From the NCBI RefSeq assembly GCF_022808695.1, contig NZ_JAKZKW010000002.1, forward strand, positions 124,001 through 188,000: a DNA stretch of 64,000 nucleotides, written 5' to 3'. The notes below the pieces were generated by a model. That model saw only the letters and a list, made by a program, of their open reading frames with translations. It was not told the origin of the DNA and did no database searches. Made by a program: the position numbers and the translations under genes. Source of the stretch: Fundidesulfovibrio soli (GTDB taxonomy: Bacteria; Desulfobacterota; Desulfovibrionia; Desulfovibrionales; Desulfovibrionaceae). Every line of letters starts with the position of its first letter. Position 1 is the stretch's first letter. Below, piece by piece: positions 1,613 through 57,656 of the stretch.

Positions 1613-1926
1613 ACCTTCTTGTCGAGCAGATGCCCGATCCAGGGCGACGAGGACGGAGGCGCGTCCTCCCCTTCGGCGGGGTGGTGCTGGCGGCGGGGCT
1701 GCTGGTGGTGCTGGGCGGACTGGCGGGAGGCGTCCTCGTCCTTCACCATCACGGCTGCTTCCTGCTTTTCGACCTTCTGGACCTGATGCTGCTGGTCTTT
1801 CTGAATCTGCAGGGCCATCTGCTGGGCGAACACCTGCTGCACCTCGGGGTGGGCCAGCTGGGCGGCGGCCATACCCTGGAGGTTGGGCATCTGCGCGATG
1901 GGAGCCGTGATGTTGATGTCCGCCAT
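1609..1926 (-). CDS. Hypothetical Gln/His-rich protein in the flagellar operon
   Basis: A 105-residue protein with no recognised domain. It is rich in Gln, Ala and His, with a likely helix (about residues 15-60) rich in QQ and KVEKQE, then a low-complexity His/Gln/Pro segment. No signal peptide or membrane helix is seen. Its ATG overlaps the stop of the FliL-like gene by one base (TAATG) and its stop overlaps the GTG of the next gene, so it is tightly coupled on both sides. That makes a role with the FliL-like or DUF2802-like protein likely, but this is an inference from position. Confidence 0.7.
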   Translation of the reverse strand: MADINITAPIAQMPNLQGMAAAQLAHPEVQQVFAQQMALQIQKDQQHQVQKVEKQEAAVMVKDEDASRQSAQHHQQPRRQHHPAEGEDAPPSSSPWIGHLLDKKV

Positions 1927-2669
1927 TATTTCACCAGCAGTTCGTCGAACAGCACCTGGTCGATCTGCCCGGAGTTGAGGTAGTTGTTCACCACCCCGCG
2001 CAGTTCTTCCCGGATTTTTTCCACCTCGTCCTTGTCGGTCAGATTGTTGAAAGTCTTATTCTTCAGGTTGTAGTACAGGCCGTCCCTGATGGGGAAAGCC
2101 TTGAGCTGCAGCTCGGGCACAATGGGGCTGTCCTGCTTGTATACGAGCTTGAGCTTGATGTTGACTACCCTGCTCACGCCCTTGGCGTCCACTTTTTCCA
2201 CCACGAAGGGCGCGAGCTCCACGAAGACGTCCGGCGGCTGAGGCGGCGGAGGAGGCGGCGCGGGCGGCGCGGGTTCCTCCGCAGGAGGGGGCGGCGGAGG
2301 CGGCGGGGGCTCGGGCGGAGTGCGCAGCAAGAACCACCACACCGCGGCCCCGGTGACAAGCAGCAAGGCCGCCCCGCCGATGAGCACGAGCTTCTTCTTC
2401 CAGAAGGGCAGCTTCAGAGGCTCGTCGAGCTCCTGGGGCGGGGGGGCGGTGGGAATCTCGGGGAGGGGGGCGGCCTCCTCCGGTTCGTCCTCGAGGAAGG
2501 GGGCGTCGTCAAGGTCCAGCTCGACCTTCTGCTGGGCGCGGGGCGAACCCGCGGAAAGTTCCGTGTCGTCGAGCCTGGCCTTGACCTGGTCGGGGGCGGC
2601 AGGGTCAAGCACTCCGTCGCGGGAGCCGCCCGGGGGGGCGGTGTCGTCTGGGGGCGGAGGCGCGGCCAT
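1926..2669 (-). CDS. fliL: FliL-like flagellar basal body-associated protein
   Basis: FliL proteins are single-pass inner membrane proteins that surround the stator and support motor torque. This 247-residue version has an acidic, Pro-rich cytoplasmic N-terminus (1-88), one membrane helix (about 93-113, VLIGGAALLLVTGAAVWWFL), a long Pro-rich linker, and a C-terminal periplasmic domain (about 145-247). That domain carries the family's usual ending, with a REELRGVVNNYLNSGQID segment followed by VLFDELLV. The N-terminus is much longer than in enteric FliL (about 155 residues). It sits between cheY and two coupled small genes. The assignment rests on the C-terminal pattern and the operon. Confidence 0.75.
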   Translation of the reverse strand: MAAPPPPDDTAPPGGSRDGVLDPAAPDQVKARLDDTELSAGSPRAQQKVELDLDDAPFLEDEPEEAAPLPEIPTAPPPQELDEPLKLPFWKKKLVLIGGAALLLVTGAAVWWFLLRTPPEPPPPPPPPPAEEPAPPAPPPPPPQPPDVFVELAPFVVEKVDAKGVSRVVNIKLKLVYKQDSPIVPELQLKAFPIRDGLYYNLKNKTFNNLTDKDEVEKIREELRGVVNNYLNSGQIDQVLFDELLVK

Positions 2670-2720
2670 GGGTGATCCGTGCGGTGGGCGGATCGGCGGG
2701 GCGCAGGGCCCCGCCGGTCA

Positions 2721-3104
2721 TTACTTGTCGAAGATCTTTTCGATCTTCTGGCCGAGGGTCTCGGCCGTGAACGGCTTGACGATGTAGTTGGAGACCTTGG
2801 CCTGCACGGCCTCGATGATGTTCTCCTGCTGGGCTTCGGCCGTGACCATCAGGAAGGGCATGGCGGCGAATTCCTCGCTGGCGCGCACCTTGCGGAGCAG
2901 TTCGATGCCGGGCATCTTGGGCATGTTCCAGTCCGAGATGACGAAATCGATGCGGTCCTTGTTGAGTATCTCCCAAGCGGTCGTGCCGTCGTCTGCTTCG
3001 ATGATGTTGGTGAAGCCCAACTGGCGCAGGATGTTCTTGATGATGCGGCGCATGGTGGAGAAATCGTCCACTACGAGTACGCGCATGTCTTTGTTCACGG
3101 CCAT
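2721..3104 (-). CDS. cheY: Chemotaxis response regulator CheY
   Basis: Single-domain receiver (127 residues) that carries the phosphoryl signal from CheA to the flagellar switch. The acidic pair is D13-D14 (VLVVDDF), the phosphoacceptor is D58 in SDWNMPKMPG, T/S switch region is MVTAEA, and the conserved Lys lies in IVKPF near residue 110. There is no output domain. The start at 3104 has AAGGAG eight bases upstream. Gene position between fliA and the fliL-like gene, all on one strand, fits a dedicated flagellar CheY. Confidence 0.92.
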   Translation of the reverse strand: MAVNKDMRVLVVDDFSTMRRIIKNILRQLGFTNIIEADDGTTAWEILNKDRIDFVISDWNMPKMPGIELLRKVRASEEFAAMPFLMVTAEAQQENIIEAVQAKVSNYIVKPFTAETLGQKIEKIFDK

Positions 3105-3182
3105 GATGGTCTCCTTTTGGCGTATCCCGCCGGCGGCGGGGAGGCTACGAAACGTGTCGCCGGGCCTGGCTGCCGCTTTCCG

Positions 3183-3977
3183 CTACGCTTCCACGATGCC
3201 GAACTGCGCGTGGAACTTGCTGCGCAGCTTGGAAAGGGCCTGGGAATGTAGCTGGGAAACGCGGCCCTCAGTGATGCCCATGACCTCGCTGGTCTCGCGC
3301 ATGTTGAGTTCTTCCACGTAGTACAGTGAGAGCACAAGCTGTTCCCGTGGCGTCAGTTCATCAATAAGCAGCGCCAGTTTGTCAACGATTTCTTTGAGCG
3401 CGGCAGATTTGTACGGCTCGTTGTCGATCTGCTGTTGCTTGAACGAGGTCAAATTCTCGGTGATGGCGTCCAGGCTGAGGCAGAGCTGGCTCTGCATGGC
3501 CTCCATGGCCTGGGTCACCTCTTTGACGGAGAGGCCCGTGACGCCGGAAAGCTGTTCCGGGGTGGGCGTGGCGTCGGACACCGCTTCCAACTTACGGATG
3601 GCCTCGTCGATGACGCGGACCCGGTGCCGCTGGCCCCGGCTGAACCAGTCGAGCTTGCGCAGTTCGTCGAGCATGGCGCCCTTGATGCGCGACTCGGCGA
3701 ACGTCTCGAACTTGATGCCCATCTCGGGCTTGAAGCGCCCCAGGGCCTCCATGAGCCCGAGGGCTCCGGCGCTGAGCAGTTCCCCCAGTTCAACGCTGGG
3801 GGGAAGCTTGGCCTTGAGCCGCAACGCCAGAAGCTTGATCTTGGGGGAATAGTGCCTGACGATGTCCTGTCGGTCCGCCTGGGCAAAGTCCTGCCAAGAC
3901 TTGGCTCCGGCTTCGAAGCTAAGCCACGGGCTGCTCTTGGAAGAGGAGCTTTTTCCAGAAGAACTTGATGTTTCCAT
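3183..3977 (-). CDS. fliA: Flagellar sigma factor FliA (sigma-28)
   Basis: Sigma-28 family factor that directs RNA polymerase to late flagellar and chemotaxis promoters. Region 2 is seen as LKAKLPPSVELGELLSAGAL and the following GRFKPEMGIKFETFAESRI. Region 4 is ELTPREQLVLSLYYVEEL with the DNA-binding helix MGITEGRVSQLHSQAL near the end. I chose the ATG at 3977 (264 residues, usual family size about 240-260). An upstream ATG at 4019 would add 14 residues. Either start overlaps the end of the FlhG gene, by 59 or 101 bases, which is long for an operon; a start after the FlhG stop (non-ATG) is also possible. The first 20 residues are a Ser/Lys-rich low-complexity stretch. Confidence 0.9.
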   Translation of the reverse strand: METSSSSGKSSSSKSSPWLSFEAGAKSWQDFAQADRQDIVRHYSPKIKLLALRLKAKLPPSVELGELLSAGALGLMEALGRFKPEMGIKFETFAESRIKGAMLDELRKLDWFSRGQRHRVRVIDEAIRKLEAVSDATPTPEQLSGVTGLSVKEVTQAMEAMQSQLCLSLDAITENLTSFKQQQIDNEPYKSAALKEIVDKLALLIDELTPREQLVLSLYYVEELNMRETSEVMGITEGRVSQLHSQALSKLRSKFHAQFGIVEA

Positions 3978-4749
3978 CGAGTTGCGCGTCGACGTCCCAG
4001 CTTGTAATTTTGCGGGCAATCGCCCCCACCTTCAGGCTAGCAGGCGCTTCCGGAGCCATGTGACAAAATGGCGTTTGGCGGATGACCGCCTGCCTTACCG
4101 TGGTATCATGCGGTATAAAGTCTACAAAATCCAGAGAAATTCCATCGAGGAAGTGGTCGCAGGCCGCGTAGAGCTTGCTGAAAACCTGCTTGGCCGCCTT
4201 CTCGCTCTGCGCCATGTTCACCACCACGCGGAAGCGGTTCACGGCGTGGTTCATGTGCATGACCTTGATCAGGGCGTAGGCGTCCGTGAGGGAGGTCGGC
4301 TCCGTGGTGAGCACCAGCAGGCGCTCCCGGGCGGCGAGGTTGAAATACAGAACATTGTCGTTGATGCCCGCACCCGTGTCCACGATGAGGTAGTCGATCT
4401 TGTCCTCGAGGTAGTCCATGGCCTCCAGCAGTTCCAGCTTCTGCCCGGTGGAGAGCGAGAGCATCTCCGCCACGCCTGACGAGGCGGGCAGGATGTGAAA
4501 GCCGTAGGGCGTCTTGTAGAGCACCTTCTTGAGGCTGACTCCCTGGTGGAACAGGTGGAACAGGTTGAGCTCCGGGGCAAGGCCCAGCACCACGTCCACG
4601 TTGGCCAGGCCCAGGTCCGCGTCGAGAAGGACCACGCGCTTGTCCAGCTTGGCCAGGCAGAGGGCCAGGTTCACGGAAATGTTGGTTTTGCCGACGCCCC
4701 CCTTGCCGGAGGTGACGGAGAAGACAAGGGGCGGATTTTTCGAGTGCAT
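3919..4749 (-). CDS. flhG: FlhG/FleN-type MinD-like ATPase controlling flagellar number
   Basis: MinD/ParA-family ATPase of 276 residues, partner of FlhF and regulator of flagellar number. The deviant Walker A is TSGKGGVGKTN near residues 13-23, the switch Asp is in LLDADLGLANVDVVLG, and Walker B-like YLIVDTGAG follows. The C-terminus ends in LLFQEQPVA. I start at the ATG at 4749, which gives the usual MinD-like beginning. The open frame runs upstream to 5622 but that part is out of frame with flhF and reads as a shadow. The gene lies 14 bases downstream of flhF and overlaps the start of fliA. Confidence 0.92.
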   Translation of the reverse strand: MHSKNPPLVFSVTSGKGGVGKTNISVNLALCLAKLDKRVVLLDADLGLANVDVVLGLAPELNLFHLFHQGVSLKKVLYKTPYGFHILPASSGVAEMLSLSTGQKLELLEAMDYLEDKIDYLIVDTGAGINDNVLYFNLAARERLLVLTTEPTSLTDAYALIKVMHMNHAVNRFRVVVNMAQSEKAAKQVFSKLYAACDHFLDGISLDFVDFIPHDTTVRQAVIRQTPFCHMAPEAPASLKVGAIARKITSWDVDAQLDGNIKFFWKKLLFQEQPVA

Positions 4750-4763
4750 GGGCTGGATTCCGT

Positions 4764-5855
4764 TTACGCGGCCTGTTCCACGGTTTGCGACGCCGGAGCT
4801 TGAACACCGGGCATCTGGTGGGAGAAGACGATCTTCCACATCGCCTGGGAGGCGGCTTCGGCCATGGTTCCCGTAAGGCCCGGTCCGAAGCAGAAGGCCG
4901 AGGCGGGCAGTTCCGTCATGCGGCCCACGTTGATCAGGCTTCCGAAAGTACCGGCTTCGTCCAGTTTCGTCCAGACCACGCTTTGCAATGCTTGGCAACG
5001 ATATTGTTCCCACACCCGGGCGTAGTGCGCGGGGGTGAAGTGGGGCGGCAGGGCCAGGTGGGCAGCCACGTCGTCGCGGCCGGTCAGGCTGCGTGCGCGC
5101 AGCCAGGTTTCCAGGGTCTGGCCCTGGGGCAGGGCGGGCAGGTCGACGAAGATGGCGTCGAAATTGCGGCAGGCGATGAGGATGCGGTCGAAATCCTCGG
5201 GATCGGCGGCGTCGGCGAACTGGATGCCGGAAAGGTCGGCTGAGCGCTTCAGCGGGGATTTTCCGCCCGCCGTGCGCTCGTCGCAGTTGACGATGCCGAT
5301 GCGCCAGCTGGGGTGCGCCTGTTTGGCGGCCAGGGCCATGCGCAGCAGGGCGCTGGTCTTGCCCGCGCCCGAAGGCCCGGTCATGAGCTGGAATTTCTGC
5401 CTGAACTCTCCGTAGGGCTTCACCGTGGCGACCCGGCCCAGTTCCGCCAGCAGGGAGGGGTTCTGCGCGCCCTTGAGCTTGAGGAACAGCCCGGTGAGCA
5501 CCGGCTCCTCCACCTCTTCGCGCTCCAGGTGCTGCATGGCCATCTTGAGCCTGGGGGGCAGGGCGTCCAGGTCCAGGTGGGGCTTGAGCAGGGCGCTCAG
5601 GTGGCCCTTGATCTCGCACCACTCCTTCTCCCAGCCTCCGCGCGGGGAGCGGGCGGCCTGGGGCAGCTGGTCGTCCTCGCTGGCCGGCTTGGGGACCTCC
5701 AGGTCCTGGTCCACGGCGGCCATGATCTCGCAGTAGGACATGCCGTTCTCACGACGGGTCTGGTTGGAGAGGATGACCGCCTCGGGGCCCAGTTCCTTCT
5801 TGATCTGGGCCATTACCAGCGCCGCGCTCGTACCCCTGAATGTTTTAACCCGCAT
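4764..5855 (-). CDS. flhF: Flagellar biosynthesis SRP-type GTPase FlhF
   Basis: SRP-family GTPase that places and initiates polar flagella. The 363-residue protein begins MRVKTFRGTSAALVMAQIK, the usual FlhF N-terminal B domain. A linker follows to about residue 85, then an N domain, then the GTPase core with P-loop LMTGPSGAGKTSALLR (around residues 157-172). Further GTPase landmarks are NCDERT, FVDLPALPQ and VWTKLDEAGTFG. The DLPA segment stands where SRP GTPases have DTAGR, so the G3 motif is divergent. Its start overlaps the end of flhA by 11 bases, and flhG follows 14 bases later, showing one transcription unit. Confidence 0.93.
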   Translation of the reverse strand: MRVKTFRGTSAALVMAQIKKELGPEAVILSNQTRRENGMSYCEIMAAVDQDLEVPKPASEDDQLPQAARSPRGGWEKEWCEIKGHLSALLKPHLDLDALPPRLKMAMQHLEREEVEEPVLTGLFLKLKGAQNPSLLAELGRVATVKPYGEFRQKFQLMTGPSGAGKTSALLRMALAAKQAHPSWRIGIVNCDERTAGGKSPLKRSADLSGIQFADAADPEDFDRILIACRNFDAIFVDLPALPQGQTLETWLRARSLTGRDDVAAHLALPPHFTPAHYARVWEQYRCQALQSVVWTKLDEAGTFGSLINVGRMTELPASAFCFGPGLTGTMAEAASQAMWKIVFSHQMPGVQAPASQTVEQAA

Positions 5856-9857: not shown

Positions 9858-9910
9858 CTCAGGGAAGCGGCCCGATGGGGCCAAACTGCCTGTAGCACTA
9901 GCCGCTTCTG

Positions 9911-10037
9911 GCAGCCTGTTCAAAAAGCCTGCTGGCAAGGCGCACGAAAAAGTCAAGGCCGAAGCATATCAGGCATATGTGAGGGTTTGACTTTTTCGGG
10001 GCAACGCAGCCAGCGGGAGTTTTTCAACAGGCTGCTA
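9911..10037. repeat. 127-bp palindromic repeat element, copy 1
   Basis: Outer arms GCAGCCTGTT and AACAGGCTGC are a perfect 10-bp inverted repeat. Inner stems pair AAAAAGTCAA (9947-9956) with TTGACTTTTT (9987-9996) and CATAT (9965-9969) with ATATG (9975-9979). It aligns without gaps to 36975-37101 over all 127 bases (96 identical by my count), and the inner stems show compensatory changes between the copies. The last three bases, TAG on the minus strand, are the stop codon of the M23 peptidase gene. It could act as a terminator on either strand or be a REP-like mobile hairpin. Confidence 0.85.
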
Positions 10038-10946
10038 CGATTTCCCGGGAGCGGGCGCCGCGCCGCCCAGGTAGGCGGCCGGGTTCACGGGCACGCCCGC
10101 GAAGCGCACCTCGTAGTGCAGGTGCGGCCCGGTGGAGCGGCCGTCCTGGCCGACGCCGCCCAGGGAGTCCCCTCGCTCCACGCGCGCCCCGGCCCGGACG
10201 TCCAGGCGCTGCATGTGGGAGAATGCGGTGACGTAGCCACCGCCGTGGTCCAGGACCACGGTCATGTTGCCCTCGGAGTCCTCCCCGGCGAAACTCACCA
10301 GCCCAGGGGCCGGGGCGCGCACCGGGGTGCCGGCCGGGGCCATGATGTCCACGCCCTTGTGGAATTCCTCCTGCCCGGCGAAGGGGGAGAGGCGCACGCC
10401 GAATTCCGAGGAGACAACACCGCGAACCGGCCAGGCGTCCGGCACGGAGCCGGGAAGGGCCGGGCCCACTGAGAGCAGCCTGCCAAGAGCCGCCGCGTCG
10501 ATCTTGCGCGGCTCCACACGCTTGGAAAGGGCGCGCAGGAAGTTGTCTGAGAGCTCCATGCGGTCCAGCAGGGCCTTGGGGTCGGCCGCGGCGCTGTTGC
10601 CCGCGTCCACGCCCGCGGCGGCCTGCCGGGCCTCCTTGTCCAGGCTGATCATCTTGCGCAGGGCCGCGTCGCCCTCGCGCAGGCGGGCAGTGCCTTCGTC
10701 CAGGCCGCCGGATATCTCGATGATGCGCTGGGCCACCTGTTTGCGCTGGGCCGAGGTCTTGGCGATCTCCTCCAGCTCCTCCTCCAGGGCCGGGCGGGAG
10801 AGCATGGCCGCGAGCCACCAGGCGTTGCCCGCCAGCACCAGCAGACAGAGGATCGCGGCCGCGGCCACCAGGGGCCAGCGCACGCTCAGCCGCCTGTAGC
10901 GGTTGGCTGTGTCCTTGAAGAGTTCGAGGCCGGAAGAGTGGGGCAT
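10035..10946 (-). CDS. M23-family (LytM) metallopeptidase, membrane anchored
   Basis: Probable peptidoglycan endopeptidase. I start at the ATG at 10946 (303 residues); an ATG at 10985 would add 13 residues and overlap the ttcA end further. Residues about 20-48 form one N-terminal membrane helix, followed by a coiled-coil region (about 50-150) and a LytM domain at the C-terminus. Zinc ligands are visible: HKGVD (the first His and Asp) and HLHYEV (HxH, the last His as ligand), so it should be active. The stop codon comes from the 127-bp repeat. Its start overlaps no other gene: the ttcA stop is at 10960. Confidence 0.88.
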   Translation of the reverse strand: MPHSSGLELFKDTANRYRRLSVRWPLVAAAAILCLLVLAGNAWWLAAMLSRPALEEELEEIAKTSAQRKQVAQRIIEISGGLDEGTARLREGDAALRKMISLDKEARQAAAGVDAGNSAAADPKALLDRMELSDNFLRALSKRVEPRKIDAAALGRLLSVGPALPGSVPDAWPVRGVVSSEFGVRLSPFAGQEEFHKGVDIMAPAGTPVRAPAPGLVSFAGEDSEGNMTVVLDHGGGYVTAFSHMQRLDVRAGARVERGDSLGGVGQDGRSTGPHLHYEVRFAGVPVNPAAYLGGAAPAPGKS

Positions 10947-10959
10947 GATGCGGTCGCGG

Positions 10960-11721
10960 TTATGGCTTCGGCAGGCCGCTGTCAATCTGCCAGCGGGTCA
11001 GCGCGCCGAAGGCGTTGGCGCGGAAGCGCCTGTCACGGGCGTACATCTCCTTGAGCCAGCCCTCGAAGTCGGAGCGGCGGGTGTTGCCGGCCGACGGGCA
11101 CGGGTTGGACCAGATGGGCAGCCCCCATTGCCGGGCGGCGCGCTTGATGTGGTCCTTCTCCACGGTGAGCAGGGGGCGGATCATCTGGAGCCTGCCGCCG
11201 AAAAAGGGTTCCGAGGCCGAGAGGCCCTGGACCTTGCCGGTCTGGAACACGTTCATGAAGAAGGTGGTCGCCAGGTCGTCGGCGTTGTGGCCGATGGCCA
11301 GGTGGGTCAGCCCGTACTGCTCGCAGAGCTGGAACAGCCGCGTGCGGCGCAGCATGGCGCAGTAGAAGCAGGCCGAGGCCTTGCGGTTCTCGGGGGAGTG
11401 GGCGCGTGGGCCGTGGTCGGTGACTTCCGCGTGCAGGGCCACGCCCTTTTCGGCGCACCACTCGATGAGCGGGGCGTGGGAGGCCACGTCGAACCCGGGG
11501 TTCACGTGCAGGGCCAGCACGTCGAACTTGAAGGGCACGATGCGCTGGCGCAGGCGCAGGACGTTGAGCATCACGAAGCTGTCCACGCCGCCGGAGACGG
11601 CCACGCCCACGCGCGAGCCCGGGGTGAGCATCTCCAGCTGGCGCATGAGCTTGCCCGCCTGGCCCACGCAGACCTTCTGGGCATAGGTGGCCTTCTCGGC
11701 CTTGACGCGTTTGAATGACAT
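10960..11721 (-). CDS. ttcA: tRNA 2-thiocytidine synthetase TtcA
   Basis: ATP-dependent tRNA thiolation enzyme, probably forming 2-thiocytidine at position 32. The 253-residue protein has the PP-loop ATP-binding motif VAVSGGVDSFVML (about residues 40-52). It also has a Cys pair in ACFYCAMLRRTRLF and a third Cys in SNPCPSAGNTRR, the pattern of the iron-sulfur-binding Cys in TtcA. The adjacent GHNADDLATT is also conserved. The upstream 213 bases hold no gene or clear promoter. Confidence 0.88.
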   Translation of the reverse strand: MSFKRVKAEKATYAQKVCVGQAGKLMRQLEMLTPGSRVGVAVSGGVDSFVMLNVLRLRQRIVPFKFDVLALHVNPGFDVASHAPLIEWCAEKGVALHAEVTDHGPRAHSPENRKASACFYCAMLRRTRLFQLCEQYGLTHLAIGHNADDLATTFFMNVFQTGKVQGLSASEPFFGGRLQMIRPLLTVEKDHIKRAARQWGLPIWSNPCPSAGNTRRSDFEGWLKEMYARDRRFRANAFGALTRWQIDSGLPKP

Positions 11722-36175: not shown

Positions 36176-36949
36176 ATGAAAGACATCCAATCATCCCCCG
36201 CAGACGTCTCCATCGCCATCGACCGCGTGGGCATCAAGTCCCTGCGCCTGCCCCTCACCGTGAAGGACCGCTCCCGGGGCAGCCAGCACACCGTGGGCGA
36301 GGTGGACATGGCCGTGGACCTGCCCGCCAGCTTCAAGGGCACGCACATGTCCCGCTTCGTGGAGGCCCTTGAGAGCTGGAAGGCCGAACTGGACTACCAC
36401 GGCTTCAAGGAGCTGGTGGCCGACGTGCGCACCCGCCTGGAAGCCCAGAACGCCCACGTGGCCGTTCGCTTCCCCTATTTCGTGCGCCAGACCTCGCCCA
36501 AGAGCGGGGCCCAGGCCAACATGGATTACGCCTGCACCGTGCAGGGCGATCTGGTGGGCCAGCGCTTCAGCATGACCCTCTGCGTCGAGGTGCCGGTGAT
36601 GACCGTGTGCCCGTGCTCCCTGGCAATCAGCGACCAGGGCGCGCACAGCCAGCGCACCGTGGTGCGCGCCCGCTGCCGCTTCAAGGGTTTCATGTGGCTG
36701 GAGGAGCTCATCGCCATGGCCGAGGGGGCCGGGTCATCCCCAGTGTACTCGCTGCTCAAGCGCGAGGACGAGAAGCACGTCACCGAGTCGGCCTTCGCCA
36801 ACCCCTGCTTCGTGGAGGACGTGGTGCGAGGTGTGGCCAAGGCCCTGGAGGAGCACCCCCAGGTGACCTGGTACAGCGTGGACGTGGAGAGCTTCGAGTC
36901 CATCCACAACCACTGCGCCGTGGCCGGGATCGAACGGACCAAGGGCTAG
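36176..36949 (+). CDS. folE2: GTP cyclohydrolase I type 2 (FolE2)
   Basis: Zinc-independent GTP cyclohydrolase, first step in folate and queuosine pathways. The 257-residue protein has [15 protein letters not shown] near the start and [16 protein letters not shown] with the family Cys-Pro-Cys motif. The C-terminus [11 protein letters not shown] is also typical. The ATG at 36176 follows AAGAAAAGAG. Its TAG is followed by the second copy of the 127-bp palindromic repeat. Confidence 0.95.
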
Positions 36950-36974
36950 CAGGCTGGCGATACAGGCGATTCTT

Positions 36975-37101
36975 GCAGCCTGTTCAAGAAAGTCGCGGGC
37001 AAGGCAGAAGAGAAAGCCAAGCCCGATGCGTAGTTCCCCTACGTGAGGGTTTGGCTTTTTTGAAGCAACGCAGCCAGCGAGGATTGTTGGACAGGCTGCT
37101 A
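36975..37101. repeat. 127-bp palindromic repeat element, copy 2
   Basis: Gapless partner of 9911-10037. Outer arm GCAGCCTGTT at the left pairs with ACAGGCTGC at the right. Stems pair CGTAG (37029-37033) with CTACG (37039-37043) and AGCCAA (37015-37020) with TTGGCT (37051-37056). The last three bases are the TAG stop (minus strand) of the lipoprotein gene. Confidence 0.85.
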
Positions 37102-37695
37102 CCGCAGCCAGACGCTGGCCATCATGAAGAAGAGCGCGTCGCGGTTGGCCTCGAAGAGTTCGCGGGCGGCCTTTTCGTCGTCGCCCAGGGTGTAGGCCAG
37201 CACCTGCACCAGCCTGCCCGGCAAGGGCGCGAAGAGCTGGTTCACGAACTGCACGCGCACCTTGCCCCCGCCGTCGGCCACCAGCCTGTAGTAGAGCGTG
37301 TCATAGGCGCGGTTGTTGCCCACCTTGCCCGGGCCGCACGTGGGGCCTAGGCCCTTCAAGGCCTCCTGGATGTACTGCTTCACGTTCTCGCAGGCCACGA
37401 AGGCGTTCTGAGTCAGGAGCATCTCCTGGCGGGGCGGGCTCACGCAGATCTGGAAGCGCACGTTCTGTCCCGAGCTGGCCTCCACGGCGAAGCGGCAGCC
37501 CTCGATCTCCTTTTCGGAGACGCTCCAGCCGGGCGCGGGCTGGAAGCGCAGCCCCTCGGCCTTGCTCTCATAGCCCTTGAAAGCCGGGGGCGGCTCCGGC
37601 GAGCAGGCACCCAAGACCAGAAGGGGCGCCAGGAGCGCGGCCAGGAACCCGGCCAAGTGTCCGGCCTGTACTCCGGAAAGTAGGGTGCGTCGCAT
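37099..37695 (-). CDS. Lipoprotein of unknown function
   Basis: A 198-residue exported lipoprotein. The N-terminus is a signal peptide with the lipobox LGACS, so Cys at about residue 31 would be lipidated. The mature part begins with a Pro-rich stretch and has no recognised domain; it contains a pattern that looks like the DUF-type FQPAPGWSVSEKEIEGCRFAVE. Four Cys of the mature part suggest disulfides. The ATG at 37695 is the natural start. Its stop codon comes from the palindromic repeat, and it is divergent from the deaminase gene at 37747. Role unknown; a conserved genus-level protein is likely. Confidence 0.8.
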   Translation of the reverse strand: MRRTLLSGVQAGHLAGFLAALLAPLLVLGACSPEPPPAFKGYESKAEGLRFQPAPGWSVSEKEIEGCRFAVEASSGQNVRFQICVSPPRQEMLLTQNAFVACENVKQYIQEALKGLGPTCGPGKVGNNRAYDTLYYRLVADGGGKVRVQFVNQLFAPLPGRLVQVLAYTLGDDEKAARELFEANRDALFFMMASVWLR

Positions 37696-37746
37696 GGGAT
37701 TTTCTAGCCCGCCGCGTTCCGGCAGGCAACAAGCAGGAGAGATTCG

Positions 37747-38298
37747 ATGAACATTTGCGTGACCCTCCCGGACTGGGTGGACGCCGTGGCCCGCCCCGGA
37801 ACCGTTTGCGCCACCGATGAGGAAAAAATGGCCATCGCCGTGGCCCTCGCCCGCGAGAACATGAGCCGGGGCGGCGGACCCTTCGGGGCGGTGGTGTTCC
37901 ACCGGCCCAGCGGCAGGCTGGTCTCCGGCGGGGTGAACCTGGTGCTCCAGTCGGGACTGAGCTCCTTCCATGCCGAAATCACGACCCTGAGCGCCGCCCA
38001 GACCCGCCTGGGCCGCTACGACCTGAGCGCGGACGGCGGGCACGAGCTGGTCACCTCCAGCGAACCCTGCGCCATGTGTCTGGGGGCGGTGCTCTGGTCT
38101 GGCGTGAAGCGGGTGGTCTGCGGGGCCTGCTGCGACGCGGCCCGGGCCATCGGCTTCGACGAAGGGCCGGTGTTCCCCGAATCCTGGGCCTATCTGCGCC
38201 GGGCGGGCATCGAGGTGGTTGAGGGCGTGCTCTGCGAGGAGGCCGAGGCCGTGCTCAAGCGCTACAAGGAGCAGGGCGGGGTGGTCTACAACGCCTGA
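37747..38298 (+). CDS. CMP/dCMP-family nucleoside deaminase (guanine deaminase-like)
   Basis: Cytosolic zinc-dependent deaminase of 183 residues. The zinc and catalytic motif is FHAEITTL (His and Glu) with SSEPCAMCLGAVLWSG (the two Cys). The C-terminus has a VYNA-type ending. Its organisation, with an N-terminal helix followed by RGGGPFGAVVF, resembles guanine deaminases rather than TadA. The exact substrate is not fixed by sequence. ATG at 37747 follows CAGGAGA. Confidence 0.85.
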   Translation: MNICVTLPDWVDAVARPGTVCATDEEKMAIAVALARENMSRGGGPFGAVVFHRPSGRLVSGGVNLVLQSGLSSFHAEITTLSAAQTRLGRYDLSADGGHELVTSSEPCAMCLGAVLWSGVKRVVCGACCDAARAIGFDEGPVFPESWAYLRRAGIEVVEGVLCEEAEAVLKRYKEQGGVVYNA

Positions 38299-38318
38299 TC
38301 CCCGCCTCCCCTGGCCCG

Positions 38319-39965
38319 CTAGTTGTTCAGCAGCAGCTGCAACAGCCCCAGGTTCGGGACGTTCTTTCTGTATGTTCCGGCAAGCGTCTGCGGCTGGCCT
38401 GCCTGGAAGGTGAAGGCCTGCGCCGCGGGCGCCTTCCAGCCGGGCACGGCCGAGAATTCCAGCGTGTGCTGCCCCGCGCCCAGCCCTGAGACGTGCGCGC
38501 CGGGCAGCTGCCAGCTCCCCCCGTCCACCCTCCACTGCGCTCCGGCCGTCACCGCTGCCTGTGGCGCAATGTTCACCGTCAATTGTGCGGCGTAGTCGCC
38601 CGTCAACTGGAGCGCCAGGCCCGAGGAGGCCGTGAAGGTCTGGCTTTGGGGCGTGGTCCAGCCGCCCACCTGGTTGAACTCGATGGTGTGCTGCCCGTCG
38701 GCCACGCTGGCGAACTGCGTCCCGCCCGTTTGCCAGGCTCCGCCGTCCATGCGCCAGCGCGCCCCGGCAGTGGCGGCCGCTGCAGGGGTGATGGCCACGG
38801 TGAGCGTGGCCGGGACATAGCCGGACTGGGTGAGCGTATAGGTCTCCCCGGCTATGTTGAACGTGGCGGTGCGCGGATTTGCCGAGGCGTTGGCGTCCAC
38901 GTGGACCAGCACCTGGCCGGAGCCGGTTCCCGTCGCGCCTGCGTCCACCCTGGCCCAGGGGCTGTCGCTGAAGGCGGACCAGTTGCAGGTGCCGGTCCCG
39001 CCGCTGATGACGAAGACGCTGTAATCCCCGCTCGCCGCGTCGGCGTCCTGGCTGGTCTTCGAGATCGCATAGTCGCATGACGGCCCGCCCTGCACCAGGG
39101 CCAGGTAGGCGTACACGCTGTCGGTATAGATGCTGGTGTTGGAGTTCTGGTACAGCAGGTGCCCCTTGGTGGGAACGTAGGACCAGGGCTGGCCGTTGCG
39201 TAAGGCTCCCGCCCAATATCCGCCGCCCAGGTAGCTGGAGAGGTGCAGCGCGCGCAGCGTCAACAGTTCATGCGGCGTGGGCATGCGCCACTGGCTCGCA
39301 TAGTAGTTGATCCATGCGTTGACGGCGCTGTTATAGGAATACGCCACACCCACAAAGTTCCAGGTGAGCCCCGTGGCGGAGTCGGCGTAGCCCGAGAACT
39401 GGGGGGTGAGCGCCGGGCCTCGGACGCAGCGGATGTAGAAGGGGGCGTCGTTGTAGACCGCGTCGTCGATGGCGTTGGTGGAGGTATTGAGGTAATAGGA
39501 GAAGTTCTCGCGCCCGGACACGTAGGATGCGGCGTTGGTCCAATAGCCGCCGATCCTGGATGTGGGGAAGTAATGCATGGGGATGAGCGAGCCGCTATAG
39601 CTGCGGATGGTGGCCATCTCCAGCGGTGAGGGCGCGCGCCAGTCCGCGTGGCCGTTCAGCCGCAGCTGCGTGCAGTAGGTGCAGGCAGCCGCCCAGCCGC
39701 GCGTATTGCCGTCGTCGGTTTGCTGCCAGGTGAGGCCGGTGTTGAGGTCGGTGACGGTGCCGTCGCCGTTGTCGCGGAAGGCGAAGACCACGCCGTTGGC
39801 TTCGGGGAGGATGAAAGCCCGCGCCTGGCCCGACAGCACGCCCAGCAGAAGCAGGAGGGTCAGGGCGGCCCGGAGCGTCTGGCGCGCGGCCGATGCGAAG
39901 CGGGAGGGGGGTATGCGGGGGTATACGTCCACTGTGACGCCATGTAGGCGGTAACCGATACGCAT
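38319..39965 (-). CDS. Exported surface protein with two DUF1566 domains, BACON-like domain and internal repeats
   Basis: A 548-residue exported protein; I start at the ATG at 39965. A signal peptide (about residues 27-51) ends in AxA (SGQARA). Two DUF1566/Lcl-type lobes (about 52-160 and 160-290) contain DLNTGLTWQQ and SATGLTWNFV with the family's W-x-[ML]P endings. Next is a BACON-like domain (about 305-385; TGTCNWSAFSDSPWARV). Two repeats of about 75 residues follow (GARWRMDGGAWQ and GAQWRVDGGSWQ), and then RNVPNLGLLQLLLNN. Such proteins bind carbohydrate or host surfaces elsewhere. The minus promoter candidate TTGACA lies at 40019-40024. Confidence 0.78.
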   Translation of the reverse strand: MRIGYRLHGVTVDVYPRIPPSRFASAARQTLRAALTLLLLLGVLSGQARAFILPEANGVVFAFRDNGDGTVTDLNTGLTWQQTDDGNTRGWAAACTYCTQLRLNGHADWRAPSPLEMATIRSYSGSLIPMHYFPTSRIGGYWTNAASYVSGRENFSYYLNTSTNAIDDAVYNDAPFYIRCVRGPALTPQFSGYADSATGLTWNFVGVAYSYNSAVNAWINYYASQWRMPTPHELLTLRALHLSSYLGGGYWAGALRNGQPWSYVPTKGHLLYQNSNTSIYTDSVYAYLALVQGGPSCDYAISKTSQDADAASGDYSVFVISGGTGTCNWSAFSDSPWARVDAGATGTGSGQVLVHVDANASANPRTATFNIAGETYTLTQSGYVPATLTVAITPAAAATAGARWRMDGGAWQTGGTQFASVADGQHTIEFNQVGGWTTPQSQTFTASSGLALQLTGDYAAQLTVNIAPQAAVTAGAQWRVDGGSWQLPGAHVSGLGAGQHTLEFSAVPGWKAPAAQAFTFQAGQPQTLAGTYRKNVPNLGLLQLLLNN

Positions 39966-57580: not shown

Positions 57581-57656
57581 TGGAGCGGGCGACGAGATTC
57601 GAACTCGCGACACCAAGCTTGGGAAGCTTGTACTCTACCAACTGAGCTACACCCGC
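57581..57656 (-). tRNA. tRNA-Gly (CCC anticodon), CCA encoded
   Basis: On the minus strand it reads GCGGGTGTAGCTCAGTTGG... and ends in CGCCCGCTCCA. The acceptor stem has seven pairs (one G-T). The anticodon stem CAAGC/GCTTG encloses TTCCCAA, so positions 34-36 are CCC, decoding GGG. The T arm contains GTTCGAATC. The CCA end is encoded in the DNA. Confidence 0.93.

Follow-up and report, generated by a model that had tools for sequence, protein, structure and literature searches.

An apparently undescribed hairpin family in sulfate-reducing bacteria and their relatives, best explained as a MITE-like transposable element

The stretch of Fundidesulfovibrio soli DNA analysed here (64,000 nucleotides, hereafter the window) carries two copies of a long palindromic repeat, which are best explained, and in our judgement probably, as a MITE-like, non-autonomous hairpin transposon about 150 bp long that is presumably moved in trans. 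They belong to an apparently undescribed family that occurs in numerous sulfate-reducing bacteria and related lineages. The initial annotation of the window had seen a folded repeat only, overlooking that the unit is transposable and duplicates 4 bp of its target.

The palindromic cores of copy 1 (9911-10037) and copy 2 (36975-37101), both on the plus strand and both delimited by alignment, fold and covariance model, align without gaps and are identical at 96 of 127 positions, exactly as first described. Searching the window with the covariance model returned these two copies only (145.5 bits, E = 1.9e-34, and 125.8 bits, E = 1.8e-29). The coordinates first given hold for the 127-bp core but miss a left terminal repeat, with which the whole units run from about 9886 to 10034 and from about 36950 to 37098 on the plus strand; for copy 1 we placed these boundaries by comparison with G043, a genome of the same order in one contig, whose copies have precise limits. 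The left terminal repeat of copy 1 (9886-9910, plus strand, CTGCCTGTAGCAC...) is a degenerate direct copy of the terminal motif, recognised in an alignment of 22 copies from the same genome with their flanks. The core of copy 1 includes the CTA of the right target flank CTAC (10035-10038), and positions 10035-10037, read on the minus strand, are the TAG stop codon of the ORF 10035-10985. Copy 2 is flanked on the left by CTAG (36946-36949), whose last three bases are the TAG stop of the plus-strand gene folE2 (36176-36949; protein 92% identical to its F. agrisoli homologue), and on the right by CTAC (37099-37102), in which 37099-37101 form the TAG stop codon of the minus-strand ORF 37099-39216.

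Alignment of copies with their flanks resolved the whole unit into the core and, to its left, a degenerate stretch of 25-27 bp in which the terminal motif recurs as a direct repeat. The unit has similar inverted ends, CTG/CAG...TGTTGAAAAA, and the left motif occurs a second time further inside. In G043 the units are sharply bounded: they begin with CTGAGTGTTGAAAAAGTCCTTATCCG, continue into the core and terminate in CAACGGACTG, the right end reading CAGTCCGTTGAAAAACTCC when reversed. Terminal inverted repeats, as found in MITEs, are thus present (left CTGAGTGTTGAAAAAGTC, right, reversed, CAGTCCGTTGAAAAACTC). Copies throughout the class keep a C-C mismatch within the outer stem (GTT[C]AAAAA / TTTTT[C]AAC), together with the internal loop GGCAAGGCGCAA / GCAACGCAGCC and GCGTAT/ATACG as the inner stem. 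Several loci show variants of this plan. At L042 (G027:C487, 148-274) the inner core is conserved and the outer arms are wholly different, still complementary to each other (TCGTGCGCTCTGGGATCGG / CCGATCCCAGAGCGCACGA). At L050 (G026:C43, 1498-1934) three copies follow one another in tandem every 154 bases, a period that matches the length of the whole element including the left terminal repeat. In G043, 60-bp derivatives in which the outer stems are kept and the inner hairpin is missing lie near 3620599-3620658 (L209) and near 1592029-1592088 (L201), the latter joining the ends of two subtypes.

Further copies, which the initial annotation had proposed to look for, proved abundant. The covariance model scored at least 23 copies in the F. 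soli genome, a lower bound; blastn with copy 1 found about 21 further copies in this 4.0-Mb genome, at 72-92% identity, together with a few additional partial or reverse-strand matches. With about 60 copies in G043, the element is short (<300 bp), dispersed and multicopy, as MITEs are. The covariance model detected it in 70 of 149 genomes (20 genera) of a class sample and in 55 of 198 genomes (42 genera) of a phylum sample. That no name was known for the family agrees with our searches, which gave no Rfam or literature match for the element. At the gathering score, Rfam matched neither the window elements nor 12 phylum loci, and copy 1 had no match at E ≤ 1; within the window, Rfam recognised only a tRNA gene, at 57584-57656 on the minus strand. 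Exact motif strings of the element were absent from the literature searched, the plasmid collection PLSDB gave no match, and one exact 26-base pattern of the element was unmatched in viral contigs. An earlier, unnamed description is possible among the 'multicopy nucleotide sequences' of Geobacter and Pelobacter, which are similar by description, being intergenic, partly palindromic and from the former Deltaproteobacteria (PMC2700814, PMC2996986, PMC3543383).

Evidence for mobility comes from G043. Both ends can be recognised in 24 of its copies, and in 19 of these the 4-bp sequences on the two sides are identical, against an expectation of 1.8 under shuffling and a maximum of 8 in 20,000 shuffles. 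The duplicated flanks read NTAN, mostly YTAR, the target duplication that IS5 generates (PMC10359306). About 17 copies in this genome are near-identical, each at a different site, and the element has thus multiplied recently in this relative. At the site of copy 1, the sister genome G001 is empty: the joined flanks align contiguously at 93% identity, with CTAG at the site, and G005 also aligns through, at 79%. The element was therefore inserted or lost there since the split from the sister species. The copy 2 site is filled in F. agrisoli (L054) and empty in a more distant relative (L055). Against the target-duplication model, the flanks of copy 1 are now unlike each other (left CAAA, right CTAC).

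We then considered the fold, using one copy per genome from 25 genomes, a 44-pair structure, and 500 shuffles and slid structures as controls. Because the structure was taken from the alignment that it scores, the proportion of paired cells (95.5% versus 84.7% in shuffles) is somewhat favoured, by too little to explain the margins. Both sides had changed in 27 of 44 pairs, compared with 12.8 in shuffles and 7-17 in slid structures, and no shuffle (0/500) reached any of the five observed covariation measures. The excess of paired changes that the initial annotation had looked for in a larger alignment is therefore far above both controls, and its three example pairs (9966/9978, 9969/9975 and 9953/9990) form in both minimum-energy folds with both sides changed. 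The fold is strongly supported across the class. The plus strand folds more stably in 24 of 25 cases, but shared pairs include 25 G-T and 14 A-C, so that the choice of strand is not decided.

The right end of the element usually abuts a neighbouring gene's stop codon, a result that answers the earlier question of where copies lie relative to gene ends. By gene prediction, the right end coincides exactly with a minus-strand gene's stop codon in 20 of 22 copies in the F. soli genome, or 21 of 22 when copy 2 is included, whose ORF 37099-39216 the prediction missed in a short locus. The same exact coincidence holds for 66 of 82 copies in the genus Fundidesulfovibrio, 13 of 21 other loci of the order and 9 of 28 phylum loci. 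Much of this docking can be traced to the preference for YTAR targets combined with the purging of insertions within genes. The GC-rich, 64-kb window contains only 62 YTAR sites, and 17 minus-strand and 17 plus-strand ORF stops (ORFs of at least 80 aa) match them. Orientation is a separate matter: among the 82 genus copies, 55 are exact on the right only and 7 on the left only (p = 2e-10), a bias for which the palindromic target gives no explanation.

A host function could also place elements after genes. A useful 3'-end element, serving as a bidirectional terminator or as a stabiliser of mRNA 3' ends, might have spread in ancient times and been kept after stop codons by selection; we regard this as unlikely. 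The frequent right-end docking in the genus and elsewhere in the order would fit, as would T-runs that follow the stems on both strands, and in G043 docking on stops is less frequent for the freshest type A copies than for older ones (right-exact in 4 of 18 young versus 13 of 32 older copies, p = 0.23; 2 of the 4 young right-exact copies belong to a second subtype). Site turnover is nonetheless high, few element sites being common to F. soli and the sister species G001 despite flanks of about 95% identity. At three orthologous convergent gene pairs, moreover, the G000 and G001 elements are oppositely oriented, with their right ends on the stop codons of different genes, which fits independent insertions. 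A pattern scan for intrinsic terminators (GC-rich stem followed by a T-run) flagged neither window element. Above all, copies that have settled drift neutrally. In a small sample of 8 orthologous pairs of settled copies, pairing survived 14 of 42 single stem changes, where 36% would be expected in the absence of selection (p = 0.87), and stems and loops changed at about equal rates (6.3% and 8.1%). None of the 43 changed pairs was a compensatory double, while 5 compensated pairs were present between non-orthologous copies of similar divergence. Since pair loss in settled copies runs at the neutral rate, a host function at each site is disfavoured. These observations suggest that selection acts on folding during movement and not once elements have settled, and the covariation appears to arise in moving lineages. 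The earlier reading of the repeats as sequences under selection for a folded structure rather than for protein coding therefore stands in that they are non-coding and folded, but at settled sites no selection on the fold is detectable.

Long near-perfect palindromes are corrected by template switching, and the paired changes might accordingly reflect switching between the arms during replication instead of selection on folding. This process is established for such palindromes, and the near symmetry of the fold on both strands, seen in the counts of G-T and A-C pairs, would agree with it. It sits poorly with the C-C mismatch and the unlike internal loops, which are kept uncorrected class-wide, and with the lack of compensatory doubles at settled sites, and we hold it to be improbable.

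Under the preferred reading of a MITE-like element moved in trans, a transposase would cut at the element ends with a 4-bp target stagger, as in IS5-type DDE enzymes, and the fold would be kept since only folding copies would move efficiently. Stop codons would collect copies because YTAR sites in this GC-rich genome are mostly stop codons; the target duplication would restore the stop codon, and insertions within genes would be purged. Against this model, an end-pattern search of G043, the genome with the freshest copies, returned no unit in which such ends enclose a transposase. Several candidates in that genome were rejected: neither of the two DDE families searched, PF01609 (DDE_Tnp_1) and the IS5-type PF13586, has a match there, a 1.7-kb candidate autonomous copy (L138) contains a lipase-like gene, and other unpaired ends are deletion or insertion derivatives. 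Relatives do carry IS5-type insertion sequences with CTAG adjoining a GGCCTGTTAAC end, and the resemblance of these ends to those of the hairpin is only an analogy. A multicopy IS5-type insertion sequence, in G014 (L218, L222, L227, L232, L236), has 18-bp ends GGCCTGTTAACACTA and CTAG flanks.

It is also conceivable, although we think it quite unlikely, that the moving form is the folded plus strand itself, either as single-stranded DNA or as RNA copied back into DNA. The mismatch and internal loops that are conserved would then serve for its recognition, and insertion would be oriented, with a 4-bp target duplication; it would be a bacterial SINE-like or hairpin transposon served by new machinery.

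The initial annotation had pointed to a REP-associated tyrosine transposase (RAYT) as a partner. We know of no target duplication produced by Y1 enzymes. Movement of a REP-type element as a single-stranded hairpin by a RAYT is very improbable: the long folded palindrome, its terminal TAG, as in GTAG REPs (PMC3733652), and a RAYT gene 158 bp from one G043 copy speak for it, whereas RAYTs occur in none of the 7 genus genomes, show no association with the element over 59 genomes (RAYT against element presence, 11/26 versus 10/33, p = 0.42), and their Y1 chemistry is at odds with the 4-bp duplications. In G043, locus L163 (G043:C1:2811000-2830000, 1618-5065) has three RAYT-type genes or fragments beside a copy and, further on, an IS110-family transposase gene.

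The family is of a known kind, that of MITE-like palindromic elements such as ERIC, YPAL and RUP, and to our knowledge the ERIC sequence is unrelated to it. The ERIC/IRU elements of enterobacteria are likewise 127-bp imperfect palindromes, intergenic, present in about 30 to hundreds of copies and MITE-like with target duplication (PMC10969869, PMC2229807); the hairpin element differs in its 4-bp NTAN duplication, its tandem left terminal repeat and a host range in another phylum. YPAL/RU-2 of Yersinia, a 168-bp palindrome, also has target duplications and sites that are filled in one species and empty in a close one (PMC2229807), but its duplications measure 3 to 26 bp, compared with 4 bp here, and its ends lack TA. 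SPRITE and RUP of Streptococcus pneumoniae are MITE-like, structured and enriched near gene 3' ends; an IS630 partner has been proposed for RUP, SPRITE has no demonstrable duplication, and the exact stop-codon docking of the hairpin element is not described for either in PMC3049150. In GTAG REPs, which are associated with RAYTs, the terminal TAG of the palindrome is often the neighbour's stop codon (PMC3733652), but these measure 20-40 bp, whereas the hairpin element is about 150 bp long and duplicates 4 bp of its target, and the genus lacks RAYTs.

What sets the hairpin family apart is its phylum-wide range, a covariation unusually strong for a MITE, the way in which its copies dock on stop codons exactly and with an orientation, and the absence of a recognised mover from a genome with fresh copies. 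The comparison of moving with settled copies offers a way to test whether the folding of bacterial palindromes serves the host or their own mobility. For annotation, the element accounts for many odd gene 3' ends in these bacteria.
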